A stretch of 64,000 bases of DNA from Rhodococcus sp. W8901. GTDB taxonomy: Bacteria; Actinomycetota; Actinomycetes; Mycobacteriales; Mycobacteriaceae. A program made the position numbers and the translations under genes. Below, one piece after another: positions 33,414 to 44,515 of the stretch. The notes below the pieces were generated by a model, which was not told the DNA's origin, made no database searches, and worked only from the letters and a program-made list of their open reading frames with translations. The stretch covers positions 1,426,001-1,490,000 of the forward strand of contig NZ_CP054690.1 of NCBI RefSeq assembly GCF_013348805.1. The letters are read 5' to 3'. The stretch's first letter is position 1, and each line of letters begins with the position of its first letter.

Positions 33414-35927
33414 ATGAACACTATTTCCGGGTCCACGATCGGCGCTGCAGGTATGTCGTCAGGTATGTCGTCAGGTATGTCTCCGGGCGGTGCCCACGGT
33501 TCGACCGACGCCCTCCTCGACGGTCTCAATCCGCAGCAGCGAGAGGCCGTCCTGCACGCGGGATCGCCGCTGCTCATCGTGGCCGGTGCCGGGTCCGGCA
33601 AGACCGCGGTGCTGACCCGACGGATCGCGTACCTGCTGGCCGAACGCGGCGTGATGCCCGGCCAGATCCTGGCGATCACCTTCACCAACAAGGCCGCCGC
33701 CGAGATGCGCGAGCGGGTGGCCCAACTGGTCGGCCCCCGCGCCAACAGCATGTGGGTCTCGACGTTCCACTCGAGTTGCGTGCGGATCCTGCGGGCACAG
33801 TCGGCGCTGCTGCCCGGCCTGAACTCGAACTTCTCGATCTACGACGCCGACGACTCCCGGCGCCTGCTGACGATGATCTCCAAGGATCTGGACATCGACA
33901 CCAAGCGCTTCTCCGCGCGGCTGCTCGCCACGCACATCTCGAACCTCAAGAACGAGCTGATCGATCCCGAGGAGGCCGCGGCCACCGCGGACCGGGATCC
34001 GGCGGAGATGCCCAAGCTGGTGGCCCGGGTGTACGCGCACTACCAGCAGCGCCTGCGGGCCGCGAACGCGATGGACTTCGACGACCTGATCGGCGAGACC
34101 GTCGGGCTGCTGCAGGCGTTCCCCCAGGTCGCGGAGTACTACCGGCGCCGGTTCCGGCACGTGCTGGTCGACGAGTACCAGGACACCAACCACGCGCAGT
34201 ACGTGCTGGTTCGAGAACTGGTGGGGGAGGCCCCCGAGGGCGCTGTCGATCCGCACACGGTGCCGCCGGCCGAACTGTGCGTCGTCGGTGACGCGGACCA
34301 GTCGATCTACGCGTTCCGCGGGGCCACGATCCGCAACATCGAGGAGTTCGAGCGCGACTACCCGGACGCGCGGACCATCCTGCTCGAACAGAACTACCGG
34401 TCCACGCAGAACATCCTGTCGGCGGCGAACTCGGTGATCTCCCGGAACACCGGCCGCCGCGAGAAGCGCCTGTGGACCGACTCCGGCGAGGGTGAGCTCA
34501 TCACCGGGTACGTCGCCGACAACGAGCACGACGAGGCACAGTTCGTGGCGTCGGAGATCGACCGCCTGGTCGACGCCGGCGACGCGAAGTTCGGCGACGT
34601 CGCGGTGTTCTACCGGACCAACAACTCCTCGCGTGCGCTGGAGGAGATCTTCATCCGCCTCGGCATTCCGTACAAGGTGGTCGGCGGCACGCGGTTCTAC
34701 GAACGCAAGGAGGTACGCGACATCGTCGCGTACCTGCGGGTGCTCGCGAACGAGGACGACACGGTGAGCCTGCGCCGCATCCTCAACACTCCCCGCCGCG
34801 GGATCGGTGACCGCGCGGAGGCGTGCGTGTCGGTGTACGCCGAGCAGAAGGGGGTCGGGTTCGCGCAGGCCCTCCGCGCCGGCGCCGAGGGCGTCGTCCC
34901 GCTGCTGAACACCCGCTCCCAGAAGGCCATAGCATCGTTTCTCGAACTGATGGACGGGCTGCGGGCGTTGATGGTGAGCACCGACGCCGACGGCAACGAT
35001 CTCTCCGACATCGGTGAGATCATCGAGGCTGTCCTGGACCGCACCGGGTACCGCCGCGAGCTCGAGGCCAGCAGCGATCCGCAGGACGGCGCCCGGCTCG
35101 ACAACCTCAACGAGTTGGTCAGCGTTGCAAGGGAGTTCAGCTCCGACGCCCGCAACGCCGCAGCGTTCGCGGAGGACGAGTCCGCCGCCGGTGACGAGTC
35201 CGGCGAGGCCGGTGAACGCGACGACGAAGGCCTGCCCGACCCCGGTTCGCTGGCGGCGTTTCTCGAGCGGGTCTCGCTGGTTGCCGACTCGGACCAGGTA
35301 CCCGACTCGGGTGAGGGTGTCGTGACGCTCATGACGCTGCACACTGCGAAGGGGCTCGAGTTCCCGGTGGTCTTCGTGACCGGCTGGGAGGACGGGCAGT
35401 TCCCGCACATGCGCGCGCTCGGTGACCCGGCGGAACTGTCGGAGGAGCGCCGCCTGGCGTACGTCGGTATCACCCGCGCCCGGCACCGGCTGTACCTGAC
35501 CCGTGCGATTGTGCGCTCGGCCTGGGGGCAGCCGGTCACCAACCCGGAATCGCGTTTCCTGCAGGAGATTCCGGCGGATCTGGTGAACTGGCGCCGCGAG
35601 GATCCCGGCGTACTCGGTGCCGGTGGAGCCATCGGAGGTGGCCGGGCTCGCGGCCAGGGATACGGTGGATCCGGTTACAGCGGTTCGGGATTCGGCGGCG
35701 GTGGTGGCCGAGGGGCCGGTACGACGCCGAGCTTCGGCGCTCCCCGGGGGCGCAACAACAATCTCGTGCTCGCGGTCGGCGACCGGGTCAGTCACGACAA
35801 GTATGGGCTCGGCAAGGTGCTCGAGACGAAGGGTGCCGGACCGACCGCGACCGTGACGATCGACTTCGGTTCGGCGGGCAAGGTCCGCTTGATGCTGATC
35901 GGTGGCGTGCCGATGGTCAAGCTCTGA
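33414..35927 (+). CDS. pcrA: ATP-dependent DNA helicase UvrD/PcrA (UvrD1)
   Basis: An 837-residue superfamily 1A helicase that unwinds DNA 3'-5' in nucleotide-excision and other repair. Walker A is GAGSGKT at residues 58-64, motif II is VDEYQDTNHAQY, motif III GDADQSIYAFRGA, motif IV/IVa LEQNYRSTQNIL, motif V TLMTLHTAKGLEFPVVF and motif VI EERRLAYVGITRARHRLYL. The C-terminus has a Gly/Ser/Tyr-rich linker then a KVLETKGAGPTATVTIDFG-type domain that contacts RNA polymerase in PcrA. The N-terminus carries three in-frame ATGs in a 12-base repeat, so the exact start is uncertain. Confidence 0.96.
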   Translation: MNTISGSTIGAAGMSSGMSSGMSPGGAHGSTDALLDGLNPQQREAVLHAGSPLLIVAGAGSGKTAVLTRRIAYLLAERGVMPGQILAITFTNKAAAEMRERVAQLVGPRANSMWVSTFHSSCVRILRAQSALLPGLNSNFSIYDADDSRRLLTMISKDLDIDTKRFSARLLATHISNLKNELIDPEEAAATADRDPAEMPKLVARVYAHYQQRLRAANAMDFDDLIGETVGLLQAFPQVAEYYRRRFRHVLVDEYQDTNHAQYVLVRELVGEAPEGAVDPHTVPPAELCVVGDADQSIYAFRGATIRNIEEFERDYPDARTILLEQNYRSTQNILSAANSVISRNTGRREKRLWTDSGEGELITGYVADNEHDEAQFVASEIDRLVDAGDAKFGDVAVFYRTNNSSRALEEIFIRLGIPYKVVGGTRFYERKEVRDIVAYLRVLANEDDTVSLRRILNTPRRGIGDRAEACVSVYAEQKGVGFAQALRAGAEGVVPLLNTRSQKAIASFLELMDGLRALMVSTDADGNDLSDIGEIIEAVLDRTGYRRELEASSDPQDGARLDNLNELVSVAREFSSDARNAAAFAEDESAAGDESGEAGERDDEGLPDPGSLAAFLERVSLVADSDQVPDSGEGVVTLMTLHTAKGLEFPVVFVTGWEDGQFPHMRALGDPAELSEERRLAYVGITRARHRLYLTRAIVRSAWGQPVTNPESRFLQEIPADLVNWRREDPGVLGAGGAIGGGRARGQGYGGSGYSGSGFGGGGGRGAGTTPSFGAPRGRNNNLVLAVGDRVSHDKYGLGKVLETKGAGPTATVTIDFGSAGKVRLMLIGGVPMVKL
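33449..33484 (+). repeat. 12-base tandem repeat with three in-frame ATGs at the helicase N-terminus
   Basis: The unit AGGTATGTCGTC or a close variant occurs three times, giving MSSG-MSSG-MSPG in the protein. ATG codons lie at 33453, 33465 and 33477, downstream of the annotated ATG at 33414. Repeat copy number could vary without changing the frame. Confidence 0.7.
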
Positions 35928-36006
35928 CGCAACGAGGCCGGTCGGCAGGCTGGATATTCGACTCCGTGGCTGGGTTGCTTCTGGTCGGGGCTGCTCGGTA
36001 GGCAGG

Positions 36007-36394
36007 TCATCGCCTGAGGAGACCAGCGCGTTCGGCACGGTAGAGGATGTCTGCGCGATCGGCGCTCTGGAACTTCCGGTAGATGCTCTTCAGTCGGTAT
36101 TTCACGGTGTCCTGTGAGATGAACAGCTCGGCCGCCGCTTCCCGGGTGGTTCGCCCGTTTCGGAGTGCCTCGAGGGTGCGTCTCTCTGCCTCCGTGAGCG
36201 GGGGAACCAGCGACACCTGCAGCACTGCGGGCAGCCCGTCGAGGTTTCCCGGCACCCAACGGTCCGCGCAGGATGCGGAGCCGCGGCTGCCGGGCCTCAC
36301 CCTCGACCAGACGGATCACCCGGTCACGCACCAGCACCTGTGTACGAGCCTCGCGACTCGCACGGGAAAGCCGGCGTCCGGCATTCCCAATCAT
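36007..36394 (-). pseudogene. Collapsed LuxR/LAL-type regulator remnant
   Basis: The last 64 residues (from PPLTEAERRTLEALRNGRTT to RAERAGLLRR) are a complete LuxR helix-turn-helix, starting soon after the stop at 36007. In another frame just upstream on the same strand, 36394-36250 encodes TQVLVRDRVIRLVEG and LRGPLGAGK, the start and P-loop of a large ATP-binding LuxR regulator. The two are joined by a frame change with the whole NTPase and sensor region missing, which points to an internal deletion. A short intact LuxR protein read from 36300 is possible but would lack any sensor domain. Confidence 0.6.
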
Positions 36395-36571: not shown

Positions 36572-38008
36572 CTACTCGGCGCAGCCACTCGCCTCGAATG
36601 CGGACTTGGCCGTGTACTGTCCTTCCGGCAAGTACTGCCCCATGACGGCCTTTTCATCGCCGGGAGTCTCGGTATCATGCGCGGCATGGCTGAAGTCCTT
36701 GGACGGCAGCATGTTCCGCATGATCAGGAGGGAATCGTCGGGATGCCCGGCGCCATCGCCAGTCGGCGAGAGCGGCAGCCATGACACCCCGCACTCCTTG
36801 GTGGCATTTGAGGGTCGGTCTTCAGGCAGCGACGCGACGATTGTGTAACGACCGGCCGCATCAGTGGTCACCTGCTCGTCGTACAGGCATGCGATCACCT
36901 TCGTCGTTGCCAGTGATTCGTTGTTGCACATCGACCAGAACCGCATGTCGACATTGCCGTTCATATGCTGCGTGCCCGTCGTCGTCTTCGGAGTCCGCGG
37001 CAGTTCGCCACGAAGTACCAGAACGTCGCCGAACCCGCGGTTGACTTCGGCCGTGACGTAGCTGTTGTCGATGTTGGAGTACTGTCCGCCCACCCGCTGG
37101 GGTGTGCCATCACACTTGCCGAGATAGGTACACCCGAGAGTGAACTCGGCGCTGTAGTAGGCCCGCCACACAGGTGTCTGGTCCGCAGGGAATGTCGCCG
37201 GCTTGCCCGGCTGGTCGCGCAGAGCCTTGTACGTGTCCAGCGGCAGTGGAGTGGGCTTCAAGATCGCATTGTCCGCGTCGACCGCCGAACACAGTGCTTC
37301 GCCGCGCAGCACCTGACCGTCGGCGAGGTGCAACTCTGGATCCGGTAGTCCTACGCCGCCGGTGAGATCACGTCCATTGTCGGGAAGGTAAATGCGGTAG
37401 AGGAGGCTGATCCGATCCTGTCCTGGCACACCGGCATACAGAGTGTTGTGTCGCGGCTCAGCCGGCGGCGTCTCGTCGAGCACAGAGACCGTATACGACC
37501 TGCCGTCTTCATTCAGACGGTCGGCGCCCGGAAGATAGGTGTTCTGCGAACCGGCGTCCGGGGCGGTCGAAATGTCGTTGAGGACGGCGGTCGGCATCGC
37601 GGTGCCGGCGTTGTACGAGTTCAACGACTGGTAGCGCGCGTGCGCGTACTGCCCCCGGATGACCAGTTCGGCATCCTCCGGGATAGTGAACTGCGCAGCC
37701 CAATAGACCGCCGCGGTGTCGGGGAAGGCGTAGTTGAGCTGCGGGTCTGCGAGCTCGGGATTGACTGGCACGGACCAGAAGCAGGTCGACACCGGATACT
37801 CGGGATCGGGGCCGCTCGAACCGGGATCGACGGATCCGAATCCGGATCCGCTCGACGAGCCGAGATCGACGGACCCGAATCCGGATCCGCTCGACGAACC
37901 GAGATCGGCCGATCCAATCGCCGGCGCAGCGACCGCGGACCCGGTCCCGGGCAACGCTGTGATCGCGGTCAGCGCCGCCGCAGCTACGAACGTTTTCAAT
38001 GAAGGCAT
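36572..38008 (-). CDS. Secreted protein with N-terminal GS-rich repeats, DUF1214-like
   Basis: A 478-residue protein with a Sec signal peptide (MPSLKTFVAAAALTAITALP, cleavage likely after AVAAPA). Two 13-residue copies of GSxDLGSSSGSGF and a partial third follow, then a long globular part. PEDAELVIRGQYAHARYQSL and ISLLYRIYLPDNGRD resemble the DUF1254/DUF1214 type, and the protein ends near GSGCAE-like cysteine sequence. Several cysteines (STCFWS, FTLGCTYLGKCDG, SMCNNES, IACLYDE) suggest disulfides, as expected outside the cell. Function unknown. It lies downstream of the DUF1254 gene on the same strand. Confidence 0.75.
   Translation of the reverse strand: MPSLKTFVAAAALTAITALPGTGSAVAAPAIGSADLGSSSGSGFGSVDLGSSSGSGFGSVDPGSSGPDPEYPVSTCFWSVPVNPELADPQLNYAFPDTAAVYWAAQFTIPEDAELVIRGQYAHARYQSLNSYNAGTAMPTAVLNDISTAPDAGSQNTYLPGADRLNEDGRSYTVSVLDETPPAEPRHNTLYAGVPGQDRISLLYRIYLPDNGRDLTGGVGLPDPELHLADGQVLRGEALCSAVDADNAILKPTPLPLDTYKALRDQPGKPATFPADQTPVWRAYYSAEFTLGCTYLGKCDGTPQRVGGQYSNIDNSYVTAEVNRGFGDVLVLRGELPRTPKTTTGTQHMNGNVDMRFWSMCNNESLATTKVIACLYDEQVTTDAAGRYTIVASLPEDRPSNATKECGVSWLPLSPTGDGAGHPDDSLLIMRNMLPSKDFSHAAHDTETPGDEKAVMGQYLPEGQYTAKSAFEASGCAE
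37838..37915 (-). repeat. Two 39-base tandem repeats in the secreted protein
   Basis: Residues 32-44 and 45-57 are near-identical copies of GSxDLGSSSGSGF, and a degenerate third copy begins at residue 58. The DNA copies are also close to identical, so this is a recent or maintained tandem duplication. Confidence 0.7.
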
Positions 38009-38268: not shown

Positions 38269-39210
38269 CTAGAGCGCTTCGGGACGCGGCGCCGTCCAGG
38301 TGCCGTCGAGCACGGAGGGCCGGGGGCGGTACAGCCGCAGCACGTAGTTCCAGCCCGGCATGATGGGCAGGGCGTTCGCGACACCGTCGAGGTGTACGCC
38401 GAAGCGGATGGTGGTACCGCCGTCGGCGTCGGGGGTGGCGGTGAGGCTGTTGATGCTGTTCACGCCCAGGGCGTTCTCCTCGAAGTAGCCGGCCGCGTTG
38501 TACAGCGACACCGACCAGAACGCATCCACCGGAACGTCGTTCAGACGGAGACGGTATTCCGCGACAGGGAGGCGTTCGTCGACGCTGACGTAGGTGGCCT
38601 CCTGTTCAGGGAGGCCACCCCAGCCGGAGGCGGTGCCGAGCAGGTGCATGATCGGATCGACTTCTGCTGCGGTGCCGAATGATCGGTCGTACTTGCTGAC
38701 GCCGCGAGCGAGTGCGAGGATCGCGTCGCGGGTCTCGTTCTGCGACTGCTCGTCGTAGCCGGGCAACGGGAACTCGCCTGTTCCGCCGCCGTCGATGGCG
38801 AGGACGTCCTGCAGCCGGTTCACCTCGGCGACGTCTTCGGGGCTGTTCGGATCGACGAGGATGCGCACGATGAGTGCGGCGTAGTCGGTCCCGACCAGTT
38901 CGCGCGTGAGCACGTGCTCTCCCGGATCGCGCAGGATGACCGGACCGTAATGATCTTGACTGATCACCCACACGGAGATGTAGCGCTTGCCGGTATCCGG
39001 CACCGTGATCGTGACGTCTTCGCACACGTCGATGATGCTGCTGCTGTACAGGGTGTCGCGGTTCTGGCGGATGATCGGCTGGTTGTCGAGCGGCTCGAGC
39101 TCACGAGTGTGGTTCCAGGTGCCCAGGCCGCCGCCCGCGGCCAGGCGAGCGAACATGAGATCGGATTCTGCCCGATTGAAGTTCAGGATGTTGACGGGAA
39201 TCGCGGACAT
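38269..39210 (-). CDS. DUF1254/DUF1214 domain protein
   Basis: A 313-residue cytoplasmic protein. The DUF1254 part has IIRQNRDTLYSSSIIDVCED and ITVPDTGKRYISVWV, and the DUF1214 part has DVPVDAFWSVSLYNAAGYFE and PRPSVLDGTW near the end. No signal peptide is present, unlike its neighbour at 36572. The ATG at 39210 is chosen because GGAAC lies 5-7 bases ahead; another ATG at 39222 is in frame. The family has no established biochemical role. It is 63 bases downstream of the SHOCT operon on the same strand and may share its transcript. Confidence 0.82.
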   Translation of the reverse strand: MSAIPVNILNFNRAESDLMFARLAAGGGLGTWNHTRELEPLDNQPIIRQNRDTLYSSSIIDVCEDVTITVPDTGKRYISVWVISQDHYGPVILRDPGEHVLTRELVGTDYAALIVRILVDPNSPEDVAEVNRLQDVLAIDGGGTGEFPLPGYDEQSQNETRDAILALARGVSKYDRSFGTAAEVDPIMHLLGTASGWGGLPEQEATYVSVDERLPVAEYRLRLNDVPVDAFWSVSLYNAAGYFEENALGVNSINSLTATPDADGGTTIRFGVHLDGVANALPIMPGWNYVLRLYRPRPSVLDGTWTAPRPEAL

Positions 39211-39273
39211 GGCGGGTTCCATTCGGTGTCGGGTACGGCACGGGAGCGGGTATCCCTCGCCCCGTCGGGGAAT

Positions 39274-39582
39274 TCAGCCGAGCAGTCGCGCTTTCGCGGC
39301 TTCGAACTCGGCATCGCTCAGCAGGCCTTGTGATTTGAGATCGCCGAGTTTCTGCAGCTCGGCGACGAGATCGACCGGGGCAGCGGGCGCGCGTGTGGTC
39401 ATCGCGCGTGCTGCCTGCTGCTGGGCCAACTCGTACTGGGCCTGCTCGTACTCGGCCTGGGCCCTTCGCTGCCGGCGGGTGGCCATACCGTCGCTGACGG
39501 CGGTCGCGGTACCGGTCACGATCGCGGTGCGCGCGGCAAGGCCCAGCAGTCCGGGGCGACCGGTTCTCGGGATGAAGGGCAT
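39274..39582 (-). CDS. SHOCT-domain protein
   Basis: A 102-residue protein. The C-terminal SHOCT motif is DLVAELQKLGDLKSQGLLSD followed by AEFEAAKARLLG, which is clear. The N-terminus has a short hydrophobic/small-residue stretch (GLLGLAARTAIVTGTATAVS) that may associate with the membrane, and a Gln/Tyr/Ala-rich linker (EYEQAQYELAQQQ). SHOCT domains are short oligomerisation or targeting modules. The stop of the upstream DUF6325 gene is 2 bases before this start, so they are co-transcribed. Confidence 0.85.
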   Translation of the reverse strand: MPFIPRTGRPGLLGLAARTAIVTGTATAVSDGMATRRQRRAQAEYEQAQYELAQQQAARAMTTRAPAAPVDLVAELQKLGDLKSQGLLSDAEFEAAKARLLG

Positions 39583-39583
39583 G

Positions 39584-40036
39584 TCAGACCTCCAGTTTCG
39601 GGGTGATCGTGTCCATGAGGGCGTTGACGATCGGGGCGGGAATCCGCTCGTAGCCCAGTAGCACCGCGCCCGACTCGGCGGTCCGGGCGGCGAGCTCACG
39701 CTGATAGACCAGCTCGAGCGCGACCAGCAGCGCCGCAGCGCCGGCGGGGATCGCCGCCGCGAGTTCGGTGATGTCTTCATGCCCGAGGAGACCGGACGCG
39801 CCGAGCATCTCGACATTGATCTCGAAGCCGTTCGGCAACTCCTCGACCTCGATGAGGGTGAGTTCGCCGTCCTCGGACTTGGAGATGACGATCAGATCGA
39901 GCAGCTGCACCAGGCCGGTATCTGCAAGGTCGGTGAGCGCGGAGAGTGCGGCCGGGTCGAGGCTCTCCCCGGGCAGGCCGAGAAGATAGAAGTCGACAGG
40001 TCCGAAACGCGCAGCACTCACCACGTCGCCGCTCAC
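39584..40036 (-). CDS. DUF6325 family protein
   Basis: A 150-residue protein with FGPVDFYLLGLPGESLDPAA near the start, ADTGLVQLLDLIVISKSEDG, LLGHEDITELAAAIPAGAAA and LVYQRELAARTAESGAVLLG. This matches my memory of DUF6325, small proteins found beside SHOCT-domain genes in actinobacteria. The helix IPAGAAALLVALELVY is hydrophobic. The GTG at 40036 overlaps the TGA of the upstream PLDc_N-SHOCT gene (GTGA), showing translational coupling. A longer frame to 40294 is antisense sequence. Function unknown. Confidence 0.75.
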   Translation of the reverse strand: MSGDVVSAARFGPVDFYLLGLPGESLDPAALSALTDLADTGLVQLLDLIVISKSEDGELTLIEVEELPNGFEINVEMLGASGLLGHEDITELAAAIPAGAAALLVALELVYQRELAARTAESGAVLLGYERIPAPIVNALMDTITPKLEV

Positions 40037-40407
40037 GAGAGGACCTTCAGCTTCAGTGCGGTGAACTCGTCCTCGTTGATGGCTCCTGCTTCGAGGAGTG
40101 CTGCGGCTGTGGCGATCTCCTCGCTGGGGCTCTTCCCTGCGACCTCGCGGATATACGATTCGGCAGCGTTCTCCGCGTCGCGTGCGGCCTTGTTGCTGCG
40201 TTCCGTCATCCCTTCGCCGCGGGCGACGAGATAGACGAGCGCTGTCACGATGGGCAGGAAGAGCAGGAAGAACACCCAGAGGGCCTTCAACCAACCGTTC
40301 AGCTTATGGTCGCGGAACAGGTCGGCGATGATCGCGAACAGCGCGAAGAGATATCCGATGAAGACGGTCGCCGACAGCATCCAGCCGAGGCTTTCCCAGA
40401 AGTTCAT
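40033..40407 (-). CDS. PLDc N-terminal/SHOCT membrane protein
   Basis: A 124-residue protein with two transmembrane helices (SATVFIGYLFALFAIIADLF and KALWVFFLLFLPIVTALVYL), the FRDHKLNGWLKALW loop typical of the phospholipase D-nuclease N-terminal (PLDc_N) membrane module, then a cytoplasmic coiled part and a C-terminal SHOCT motif (AAALLEAGAINEDEFTALK). It resembles toxin-immunity or stress membrane proteins of this class. It is first of the coupled trio with DUF6325 and the other SHOCT protein, and its two SHOCT partners may assemble with it (inference). Confidence 0.85.
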   Translation of the reverse strand: MNFWESLGWMLSATVFIGYLFALFAIIADLFRDHKLNGWLKALWVFFLLFLPIVTALVYLVARGEGMTERSNKAARDAENAAESYIREVAGKSPSEEIATAAALLEAGAINEDEFTALKLKVLS

Positions 40408-40480
40408 GTGTGTTGTCCGATTCGTGTAAGGGGCCGCGGGGTTCGCGGCCGATTGATGAGGGAGAGTGGCGAAGCAGAGG

Positions 40481-41158
40481 TCAGAGGGAGGCGATGGCCT
40501 TGCCGAGGATGAGTGCCGCCATGAATGCCATGAGTACGGTCATGACCACGTTGTTCTCGCGGACGAGCCACCGGTGCAGGGCATCCAGCGGTCCCCGGAG
40601 CTGCTCTGAAGCGACGATGAACGCCGAGACCAGCACCCACACCGTCGAGGTGGCGCACAGGACGAAGACCCCCGTCGCGATACTTGCCGGGAGGGCGGCG
40701 AGACCGGCGTCTCCGATGGTCACTCCGGCGCTCGCGGCGATGAGGAGGTTCTTCGGGTTGAGTGCCGAAAGCAGGAGGCCGAGGCCGAATGCGCGCTTCA
40801 ACGTGAAGCCGTCGATGGCGGCCATCCATTTCGGGAGTGCGGGATCCACGCCGGGCTTCGGTCGGCCTCGCCATTGCCTGACCGCGAGCAGCAGCAACAG
40901 GGCCGAGAGCAGGAGCTGCACGATTACACGCGGCACGTTCGATCCACCCGAGTCGCCGTGGGGTGTGAGCAGGCCGGCGAGCAACACGAACGCCGTCACC
41001 GCGATGGCGATCCCGAGGATCCAGCCGATCAGGAATCCGGGGCCGGTGCGGCGAGCGCTCGAGGAAAGCAGCATGAGAATGGCCGCGATGATCGTGAAAG
41101 GGCTGATCGCGATGCCAAGCGCGAGCGGCAGCGTCTCCCCGATGACAGAACCCAACAT
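40481..41158 (-). CDS. GAP-family (Sap-like) integral membrane protein
   Basis: A 225-residue protein with six predicted transmembrane helices. It starts MLGSVIGETLPLALGIAISP and repeats the family pattern in FLIGWILGIAIAVTAFVLLA, FTLKRAFGLGLLLSALNPKN and SIATGVFVLCATSTVWVLV. The GAP/LysE-related family includes the M. tuberculosis sulfolipid-1 addressing protein Sap, which helps export glycolipids. GGGGAAC precedes the ATG; the longer frame to 41512 is not needed. It lies 73 bases upstream of the PLDc_N-SHOCT gene and probably heads the transcript, with a lipid or small-molecule export role as inference. Confidence 0.85.
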   Translation of the reverse strand: MLGSVIGETLPLALGIAISPFTIIAAILMLLSSSARRTGPGFLIGWILGIAIAVTAFVLLAGLLTPHGDSGGSNVPRVIVQLLLSALLLLLAVRQWRGRPKPGVDPALPKWMAAIDGFTLKRAFGLGLLLSALNPKNLLIAASAGVTIGDAGLAALPASIATGVFVLCATSTVWVLVSAFIVASEQLRGPLDALHRWLVRENNVVMTVLMAFMAALILGKAIASL

Positions 41159-41169
41159 GGTCAGTTCCC

Positions 41170-41379
41170 CTACGTAGCAGTCGCGTCGGTGGGAGCGGTT
41201 GCGAGTTCGGCGACGGAGGCCCGGTTCGTCGGGTGGATCGGATCTCCTTCGCGCACGACCTCGAAACGGCCCAGCCGCGGAAGCGCGCCGCTGCGCACCC
41301 AGCTGAACGCGAGCAGCGTGACTCCGGCAAGGAACTCCCGCCCGACATTCCGCCGGCTCAACCCGGCAATTCCGTTCAT
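41170..41379 (-). CDS. Possible 69-residue hypothetical protein
   Basis: An ORF on the operon strand immediately upstream of the GAP-family gene, 11 bases from its start. It encodes MNGIAGLSRRNVGREFLAG followed by a weak hydrophobic stretch (VTLLAFSWVRSGAL). No Shine-Dalgarno site is seen and I do not recognise it, so it may be a 5' leader rather than a gene. Confidence 0.35.
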   Translation of the reverse strand: MNGIAGLSRRNVGREFLAGVTLLAFSWVRSGALPRLGRFEVVREGDPIHPTNRASVAELATAPTDATAT

Positions 41380-41416
41380 TGCGGCAATTCTCGCCGGTTC
41401 CTGCAGGCTTCGATCG

Positions 41417-41443
41417 CGGTCTCATCCGCAGCGGATGAGACCG
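41417..41443. promoter_or_regulatory. 27-bp perfect palindrome upstream of the TPR-LuxR regulator
   Basis: CGGTCTCATCCGC (41417-41429) is the exact reverse complement of GCGGATGAGACCG (41431-41443) with a single A at the centre. A one-base loop makes an RNA hairpin unlikely, so a protein-binding site is favoured. It lies 14 bases before the ATG at 41458 and 38 bases before the minus-strand ORF at 41379. Confidence 0.7.
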
Positions 41444-42963: not shown

Positions 42964-43155
42964 GTTGCGGGGCGGTCCGACTCGTCAACGGAGTACTTCA
43001 ACGGGGGCGCACTCGGCGGGTAGAAACGCGGGTAGTGGTTTCGGCTTCCTCGCCGCGACGCCTCGGACCGATGATCGTCGGAGGGCAAACCCATTATTGT
43101 TCCGAGAACACCGGGTAGTCGCCGGGTGGCTCGACTGATCAAGGAGACACGACGT

Positions 43156-43569
43156 ATGCGTCTGCTGTTCCAGCTCTTTTCGCAATGCGTACTCGGTGTG
43201 GTGGCGTTGATCGTGGTGCATTTCGTTTTACCCGGGGTGGATCTGAGCTTCACCGGATTCTTCGTGGCAATCGGCGTATTCACCTTGGCCCACATGATTC
43301 TCGGCCCGTTCGTGCTCAGCGTGGCGCAGCGCTATGCCGCTCCGCTTGCGGGTGGTATCGGGCTGGTCGCCACGCTGCTCGCGCTGTGGGTTGCATCCCT
43401 GTTCCCCGATGGCATTCAGATCAGCGGCGTCCAGTCTTGGATCTTCGCACCGATCATTGTCTGGGTGATCACGGCACTCGGCGGGTGGATCTTCATGGCC
43501 TTCGTCATCGACAGGTGGCTCAAACGACGCAGTGCAGAGAAGCTCGTGCGCAGTGTGAATCAGGCGTGA
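43156..43569 (+). CDS. Small holin-like four-helix membrane protein
   Basis: A 137-residue protein with four transmembrane helices (FSQCVLGVVALIVVHFVLPG, FTGFFVAIGVFTLAHMILGP, LAGGIGLVATLLALWVASLF and WIFAPIIVWVITALGGWIF). The short charged tail (RWLKRRSAEKLVRSV) and size fit phage-holin-family/superfamily IV membrane proteins common in actinobacteria. AAGGAG lies upstream of the ATG at 43156; an earlier in-frame start at 43126 lacks it. A TTA codon at 43228 is notable. Function unknown. Confidence 0.72.
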   Translation: MRLLFQLFSQCVLGVVALIVVHFVLPGVDLSFTGFFVAIGVFTLAHMILGPFVLSVAQRYAAPLAGGIGLVATLLALWVASLFPDGIQISGVQSWIFAPIIVWVITALGGWIFMAFVIDRWLKRRSAEKLVRSVNQA

Positions 43570-43711: not shown

Positions 43712-44515
43712 ATGACCGCTCACCCGCTCGACCGTCGTGTTCTCCTGAAGAGTGCCCCGAACTTCCGTGACCTCGGCGGTATTCCCGTTGCATCCGGCAC
43801 CGTCCGCCCGGGCGCGCTGTACCGCTCGGCGACGCTCGCGAAGCTCGACGACGACGACCTCACCGCATTCGAGGTCCTCGGTGTCGCAACTGTGTACGAC
43901 TTCCGCACCGCTGCCGAGCGCGACGGTGCCTTCGATCGCCTTCCCGACACGGTGCGTACGGTCTGGCTCGACGTGCTGGCCGACAATGCCCAGAACGCCG
44001 CGGCCACCGGACTTCTCATGACGGACCCGGTCGCATACGCCGGGACGATCAACGACGGGCGCGGGATCGGGCAGATGGAGGAGGCGAACCGAAACTTCGT
44101 CAGTTTGCCCTCAGCGCTGAGCGCATACCGCGCGTTCTATCTCGACCTGATCGACGAGAAGCGTGCCGGGGCTGCCCTCTTCCACTGCACCACCGGCAAG
44201 GATCGCACCGGATGGGCCGCGACTTCCTTCTTGCTCCTCCTCGGCGCCGACGAGACCGACGTGCGCGCCGATTACCTCGAAACGAACACCGATCTGGCGC
44301 CCATGACCGATCCGATCCTCGCCTTCGTCGAGAGCAAGGGTGTCGACCCGGAGCTGATCCGTCCTCTCCTCGGTGTCCGTGAGAGCTACATCGATGCCGC
44401 TCTCGACGAGATGCGCACCCACTTCGGCACCGTCGAGGACTACGCGCGTGACGGGCTCGGACTCACCGCCGAGCAACTCGCGACGCTGCGCGAGCGGTTC
44501 ACGCAGTCTTCGTAG
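43712..44515 (+). CDS. PtpB-like tyrosine/lipid phosphatase
   Basis: A 267-residue phosphatase. NFRDLGGIPVASG and ALYRSATLAKLDDDDL lie near the start, DFRTAAER follows, and the P-loop reads LFHCTTGKDRTGWA with the nucleophile at Cys159, then the lid VRESYIDAALDEMR. The HCxxGKDRTG form groups it with MptpB-type and lipid phosphatases rather than classical low-molecular-weight PTPs. TAGGAG precedes the ATG. There is no signal peptide. It is at the end of the accessory region, so a role in signalling or phospholipid turnover is inference only. Confidence 0.88.
   Translation: MTAHPLDRRVLLKSAPNFRDLGGIPVASGTVRPGALYRSATLAKLDDDDLTAFEVLGVATVYDFRTAAERDGAFDRLPDTVRTVWLDVLADNAQNAAATGLLMTDPVAYAGTINDGRGIGQMEEANRNFVSLPSALSAYRAFYLDLIDEKRAGAALFHCTTGKDRTGWAATSFLLLLGADETDVRADYLETNTDLAPMTDPILAFVESKGVDPELIRPLLGVRESYIDAALDEMRTHFGTVEDYARDGLGLTAEQLATLRERFTQSS

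Follow-up and report, generated by a model that had tools for sequence, protein, structure and literature searches.

In a 64,000-nucleotide stretch of the genome of Rhodococcus sp. W8901 (contig NZ_CP054690.1, positions 1,426,001 to 1,490,000 of the forward strand; referred to here, at its full length, as the window), genes for a GAP protein, a PLDc_N-SHOCT protein, a DUF6325 protein, a SHOCT protein, and a DUF1254/DUF1214 protein lie divergent from a gene for a TPR-LuxR regulator, and a perfect 27-bp palindrome separates the two sides. We found that the core of this locus is inherited together with its regulator and palindrome: it stands together in seven of seven genomes, in three chromosomal contexts. 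An earlier note on this DNA had proposed a coherent operon with its own regulator, and this proposal held when linkage in relatives was checked; gene calls and profile matches also agree with the layout described there, and the palindrome is exact. Searches of the open-licence literature for DUF6325, for SHOCT with LuxR and Rhodococcus, and for DUF1254 with DUF1214 found nothing, and the gene set, being without a description there, stays a candidate for an undescribed system. With somewhat less than even confidence, we suggest that it is a small module for inner-membrane homeostasis under a MalT-type switch of its own.

Near-matches to the palindrome (two mismatches at most) occur in 9 of the 401 family genomes, and in seven of these nine the regulator, PLDc_N-SHOCT, and DUF6325 genes lie beside the site. 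The other two sites (genomes G034 and G699) each miss one exact half-site, and no reference protein was found within 1.5 kb of either. The flanks of the seven module copies represent three chromosomal contexts, one shared by the window and G008, one in G002, and one in the remaining four genomes. Those four, of the R. erythropolis type, have the order PLDc_N-SHOCT, DUF6325, SHOCT, DUF1254, YvlD-like four-transmembrane gene, tyrosine phosphatase gene. In the window, G002, and G008, a GAP gene heads the operon and the four-transmembrane gene lies beyond the regulator. GAP is present in three of the seven copies and missing in four. The YvlD-like gene is present in all seven (immediately behind DUF1254 in genomes of the R. 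erythropolis type) and the phosphatase gene in six; the latter was not seen in the 14 kb from G002. The co-inherited unit differs somewhat from the gene set first named: the core stood, but GAP is often missing, and the YvlD-like and phosphatase genes, both outside the range given in the earlier note, travel along. In G002, a second PLDc_N-SHOCT gene (L036:10442-10843; SHOCT, 33.7 bits, over the cut-off of 27) adjoins the regulator. A scan of genome contigs gave only 2 loci, and a plasmid search returned 13 DNA matches, all of them partial and below 80% coverage of the query, with no DUF6325 match by tblastn.

The palindrome consists of two 13-nt arms (41417-41429 and 41431-41443) around a 1-nt spacer. 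With as many as 3 mismatches allowed, its 25-bp core is found at a single place in the window (mean in 100 shuffles, 0.00), and 22 of 23 core positions are invariant across 5 aligned genomes, the aligned region as a whole having a mean column identity of 87%. Two -10-like elements are invariant in the same alignment, GAGAATT on the operon side and TATCTT directly before the regulator ATG. The predicted site contains TCATCC-N5-GGATGA, in which the GGA(T/G)GA half-sites of MalT-type regulators are found, and the only exact copy of this motif in the 5.7-Mb genome is the one in the palindrome between regulator and operon, which offers a simple test of one regulator on one site. The same motif has been reported at 17 promoters of a 51-gene region of Actinoplanes that is activated by the LuxR-family protein MalT, with the motif end lying 34.4 bases before the transcription start (PMC7567727). 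In the passages cited here, its authors call the function of this MalT-dependent region unclear (Droste et al. 2020; PMC7567727).

The regulator carries a C-terminal GerE/LuxR DNA-binding domain (PF00196, 54.8 bits; cut-off, 23.5). Several TPR families match its TPR region, every one under its cut-off; for the window protein, PF17874 (TPR_MalT) was absent from the matches up to an E value of 0.1, and it was listed, under cut-off, for the longer regulators adjoining the module in G008 and G002. MalT has an N-terminal ATPase domain; for the 491-amino-acid window regulator, the Pfam scan (run on a longer reading, from 41458) listed no ATPase family, and this short form is kept in relatives. Orthologues with 93 to 100% identity are present in 3 of 14 genus genomes, the same three that have this DUF6325 type and the palindrome, and paralogues at 40 to 41% identity are present in G008 and G013. 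Directly behind the 41% paralogue in G008 (G008:C1:2502201-2504950) is a GAP gene, a further link of GAP to this regulator class. Separately, the window appears, by eye and by an 82 to 87% match over 77 amino acids, to hold the two ends of a longer MalT-like regulator, at 36007-36300 (-) and 35792-36394 (-); that gene is open over 828 amino acids in G008 (L035:698-3184) and 897 in G002 (L036:2776-5469), and the middle of the window copy is apparently missing.

DUF6325 was found in 30 of 101 relatives, in 98 of 394 class genomes (W8901 itself being counted in both), and in none of 14 control genomes. In 50 of 58 loci of ~3.4 kb, the gene immediately behind it, in the same orientation, is a SHOCT gene, and the other 8 have no match; these loci are the best-scoring ones returned for DUF6325, three of them from W8901. 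The same 58 loci hold PLDc_N-SHOCT (16), MalT-like regulator (8), GAP (6), and DUF1254 (3) genes. Thirty-seven genomes selected because they contain DUF6325 gave 69 GAP matches; 14 of these, from 13 genomes, are no more than 10 kb from a DUF6325 gene, where by our estimate chance would give ~0.4 (distances from DUF6325 to GAP, strict motif sites, and DUF1269 were measured by hand from coordinates). When a profile of 29 DUF6325 proteins was compared with DUF1269 (PF06897), the match had a probability of 97.8 and an E value of 7e-13; for nine further families taken from these loci, the probability was at most 1.1, and the DUF1269 match was weak (51.1) with only five DUF1269 sequences. By this profile comparison, DUF6325 is a distant homologue of DUF1269. 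Unlike the aligned DUF1269 proteins, which by eye have a Gly-rich hydrophobic stretch, DUF6325 lacks this stretch and has a separate SHOCT partner. These findings give DUF6325, a family of unknown function, a regular partner, a remote relative, and a putative operator, together with a link to a class of regulators for which the actinobacterial regulon studied has had no function assigned to it. Genes for DUF1269 were seen within ~4 kb of DUF6325 genes in G034:C88, G126:C33, and G119:C248. A PDB sequence search with the DUF6325 profile returned calmodulin-like matches only (E values of 0.35 to 0.76), one DUF1269 protein had no match up to an E value of 1, and the DUF1254 protein had none up to 0.001. 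Seven distinct regions that contain DUF6325 or motif sites share a recurrent protein of ~470 to 645 amino acids (e.g., L036:11760-13175 and L099:3222-4778); two members scanned had no Pfam match.

A looser form of the motif, TCAYCC-N5-GGRTGA, occurs at 35 sites in 42 DUF6325 loci (566 kb), compared with a mean of 0 in 20 Markov simulations. These loci were selected for holding DUF6325 and include related species, with three f34 genomes supplying 15 of the 35 sites, and the 3.4-kb loci L001-L032 and L055-L080 were excluded from both motif counts made on the 42 loci. By our gene calls, coding sequence makes up 86% of these loci, yet only one of the 35 sites falls inside a called gene. The 50 gene starts within 350 bp of a looser site comprise 14 DUF6325 genes, 8 MalT-like regulators, 6 GAP genes, 3 PLDc_N-SHOCT genes, 4 members of a small unknown family, 10 genes of other families, and 5 unassigned genes. 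Twenty-five whole genomes, mostly picked for holding DUF6325, gave 168 forward-strand looser sites versus 5 for a control motif read backward, a density of ~1.15 per Mb versus 62 per Mb in DUF6325 loci. The strict motif has 68 forward sites (control, 4) in 59 of the 394 class genomes, and 8 of these sites, in 5 genomes, are within 20 kb of a DUF6325 gene. Looser sites also adjoin sulfatase, alkylsulfatase, SulP, FGE, and AI-2E transporter genes in other loci, and G005 has 8 looser sites and no hit for the regulator of the module at an E value of 1e-30. Because of the sulfatase and SulP neighbors, and because sites occur in genomes without a close relative of the regulator, several regulators probably read the looser sites. 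In W8901 itself, three looser sites lie by sulfatase, SulP, FGE, HAD, DUF1269, and DUF6069 genes (G000:C1:604000-631000; L137 and L138). At position 4435 of L141 (G035:C6), a strict site precedes the genes for two small, mutually related proteins whose starts resemble signal sequences.

The features of the locus are collected below. The tight coupling described in the earlier note is limited to three of the five genes, because 73 bp separate GAP from PLDc_N-SHOCT and 51 bp separate SHOCT from DUF1254; the GTGA overlap, of the PLDc_N-SHOCT and DUF6325 genes, is real, but the gap from DUF6325 to SHOCT is 1 base (39583) rather than 2. Similarly, one of the two SHOCT proteins named there scores over the cut-off, whereas the SHOCT match (PF09851) in the PLDc_N-SHOCT protein, at 20.7 bits, is under the cut-off of 27. 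The DUF1254/DUF1214 gene does stand at the operon end with both profiles over their cut-offs, and its product has no 19-residue hydropathy window above 1.5. The GAP/SfLAP protein is 225 amino acids long. For the YvlD-like gene, the tabulated start is that of the codon model, and the Pfam scan used 43126-43569. The possible open reading frame between the palindrome and GAP has no Pfam match; by eye, its start, but not its length, is kept in two GAP-bearing relatives. Farther out, at 36572-38008 (-), is a gene for a 478-amino-acid protein that begins with a signal-like sequence and contains a repeated stretch of the GSADLGSSSGSGFGS type; its counterpart in G008 is 90% identical, and no match to it was obtained in the regions covered for G002, R. 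erythropolis, and Rhodococcus sp. P-2.

Table. Features of the locus, in window positions, with the profile score or other basis for each.
Feature	Position	Strand	Basis or remark
DUF1254/DUF1214 protein	38269..39222	-	39.3 and 48.2 bits; cut-offs, 22.2 and 25
SHOCT protein	39274..39582	-	PF09851, 32.1 bits; cut-off, 27
DUF6325 protein	39584..40036	-	187.8 bits; cut-off, 23.4
PLDc_N-SHOCT protein, two hydrophobic segments	40033..40407	-	PLDc_N, 24.9 bits; cut-off, 23.3
GAP/SfLAP family membrane protein (LysE superfamily)	40481..41158	-	PF11139, 130.7 bits; cut-off, 35
Possible 69-amino-acid open reading frame between palindrome and GAP	41170..41379	-	May not be translated
Perfect 27-bp palindrome CGGTCTCATCCGC-A-GCGGATGAGACCG, presumed operator	41417..41443	.	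Contains MalT-type motif TCATCC-N5-GGATGA
TPR-GerE (LuxR/MalT-type) regulator, 491 amino acids	41488..42963	+	Start from codon model
Four-transmembrane protein, Phage_holin_4_2/YvlD family	43156..43569	+	PF04020, 29.8 bits; cut-off, 28.8
Tyrosine phosphatase family protein	43712..44515	+	PF13350

How might such a module work? The TPR-GerE protein probably binds TCATCC-N5-GGATGA as a dimer and controls both divergent promoters, and it would more likely activate than repress, given that MalT of Actinoplanes acts as an activator on the same motif; we regard this regulatory part as fairly likely. The chances seem evenly balanced that the products would then take up a membrane placement, comprising a two-transmembrane PLDc_N-SHOCT anchor, the DUF6325-SHOCT pair, the DUF1254/DUF1214 protein, the YvlD-like four-transmembrane protein, and the tyrosine phosphatase. 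More tentatively, the module might protect the membrane against perturbation or alter the lipids of the envelope; the GAP exporter would be an optional extra that some strains carry. Pointers toward the envelope come from the assignment of the GAP family to lipid export (PMC4608589), from the membership of yvlD in the sigma-W regulon (PMC3498285), and from Listeria, in which a bacteriocin induces both the YvlD-type gene lmo2484 and the DUF1254 gene lmo1241 (PMC12791056).

Several observations weigh on the other side. Extra lmo2484 left the susceptibility of Listeria unchanged in the experiments cited from that study (PMC12791056), and the Actinoplanes MalT regulon responds to maltose and growth (PMC7567727). 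Self-association of SHOCT was tested by those who defined the domain and, in the passages cited, was not supported, other partners being possible (PMC3581485). The shared SHOCT domains had been taken in the earlier note as a sign of an assembled complex; this argument is weak, because self-association was not found and one of the two matches is under threshold. The envelope pointers were weighed against the maltose response, the lmo2484 result, and the SHOCT result, and for this reason the envelope function is put forward only tentatively. In addition, PspA, PspC, and Toastrack were not listed up to an E value of 0.1 for the nine proteins scanned; the regulator scores 47.9 of 537 bits against the NCBIfam MalT equivalog, in the helix-turn-helix only; and the operon-side -10-like element implies, by eye, a start ~42 bases from the motif, as opposed to 34.4 in Actinoplanes. 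Finally, the strict motif and DUF6325 are not associated by genome (20 of 98 genomes with DUF6325 versus 39 of 296 others; Fisher p = 0.10), and because of this p value we dropped the claim of a genome-level association. A bolder version, an undescribed actinobacterial envelope-response module in which an ATPase-less MalT-type regulator reads one dedicated palindrome and controls a membrane complex of SHOCT partners and DUF6325, a soluble DUF1269 relative, that does the job of Psp or Yvl systems, strikes us as doubtful. If it were true, DUF6325-SHOCT pairs across the class would be the common core. Should the envelope function proposed above be correct, the control logic of membrane protection would extend beyond the Psp, Lia, and sigma-W types.

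The Actinoplanes precedent could also be taken at face value, with the regulator sensing a metabolite such as a sugar and the module, rather than answering stress, helping the cell to use nutrients or to adapt to stationary phase. A regulon of this kind, governed by carbon source or growth phase, is possible but on the unlikely side. The same motif and regulator class there go with expression that is maltose dependent and rises during growth (PMC7567727), and the sulfatase, alkylsulfatase, SulP, FGE, and AI-2E transporter genes beside looser sites elsewhere suggest metabolism. However, the phosphatase is the sole recognized metabolic enzyme in the module, and the looser sites may serve other regulators, as the sites in G005 illustrate. 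The palindrome might instead be the operator of a repressor, with the TPR-GerE protein or another factor keeping the operon off. Repression would also fit a perfect palindrome that lies between two divergent promoters, each with a conserved -10-like element, and the distance from the motif to the presumed start is unlike that of the Actinoplanes activator sites, but motif and regulator class belong to a regulator shown to activate (PMC7567727), and we consider repression improbable.

Two further explanations deserve very little credence. The locus could be an inherited or chance neighborhood of unrelated genes, and GAP and the 478-amino-acid protein do vary between copies; for the core, this is contradicted by the recurrence of the same genes and palindrome in seven genomes and three contexts, and the position of SHOCT after DUF6325 in most of the loci surveyed also speaks against it. 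Phage defence or a similar conflict system would suit the patchy distribution, the membrane proteins, and the holin family name, but seven of eight proteins have no PADLOC match up to an E value of 0.01, and the eighth, the regulator, matches weakly around its helix-turn-helix. A MalT-type switch for an inner-membrane homeostasis module is the reading that we retain, at the tentative level given above.

Among known systems, MalT of Actinoplanes SE50/110 (ACSP50_3915) resembles the present regulator in its palindrome, TCATCC-N5-GGATGA, and in being a LuxR-family, MalT-like protein, and its region, like this one, has many genes without known function, some of them membrane linked, as far as the cited passages describe it (PMC7567727). 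That region comprises 51 genes and 17 motif-bearing promoters, whereas one exact site and about eight genes are found here; in addition, the window regulator has no ATPase match, and the presumed distance from motif to start differs. The likeness to the GAP/SfLAP transporters (TC 2.A.116) consists of the PF11139 match and of a length within the published size range (PMC4608589), with the difference that GAP is accessory to the module here. Psp/Yvl-type operons such as B. subtilis yvlABCD and Listeria lmo2487-2484 likewise have a YvlD/Phage_holin_4_2 protein among small membrane-linked proteins, and SHOCT-like domains have been reported among the partners of Psp systems (PMC11237479). In contrast with those operons, the Rhodococcus locus has no PspA, PspC, or Toastrack match, and a MalT-type regulator stands in the place of LiaRS or sigma-W.

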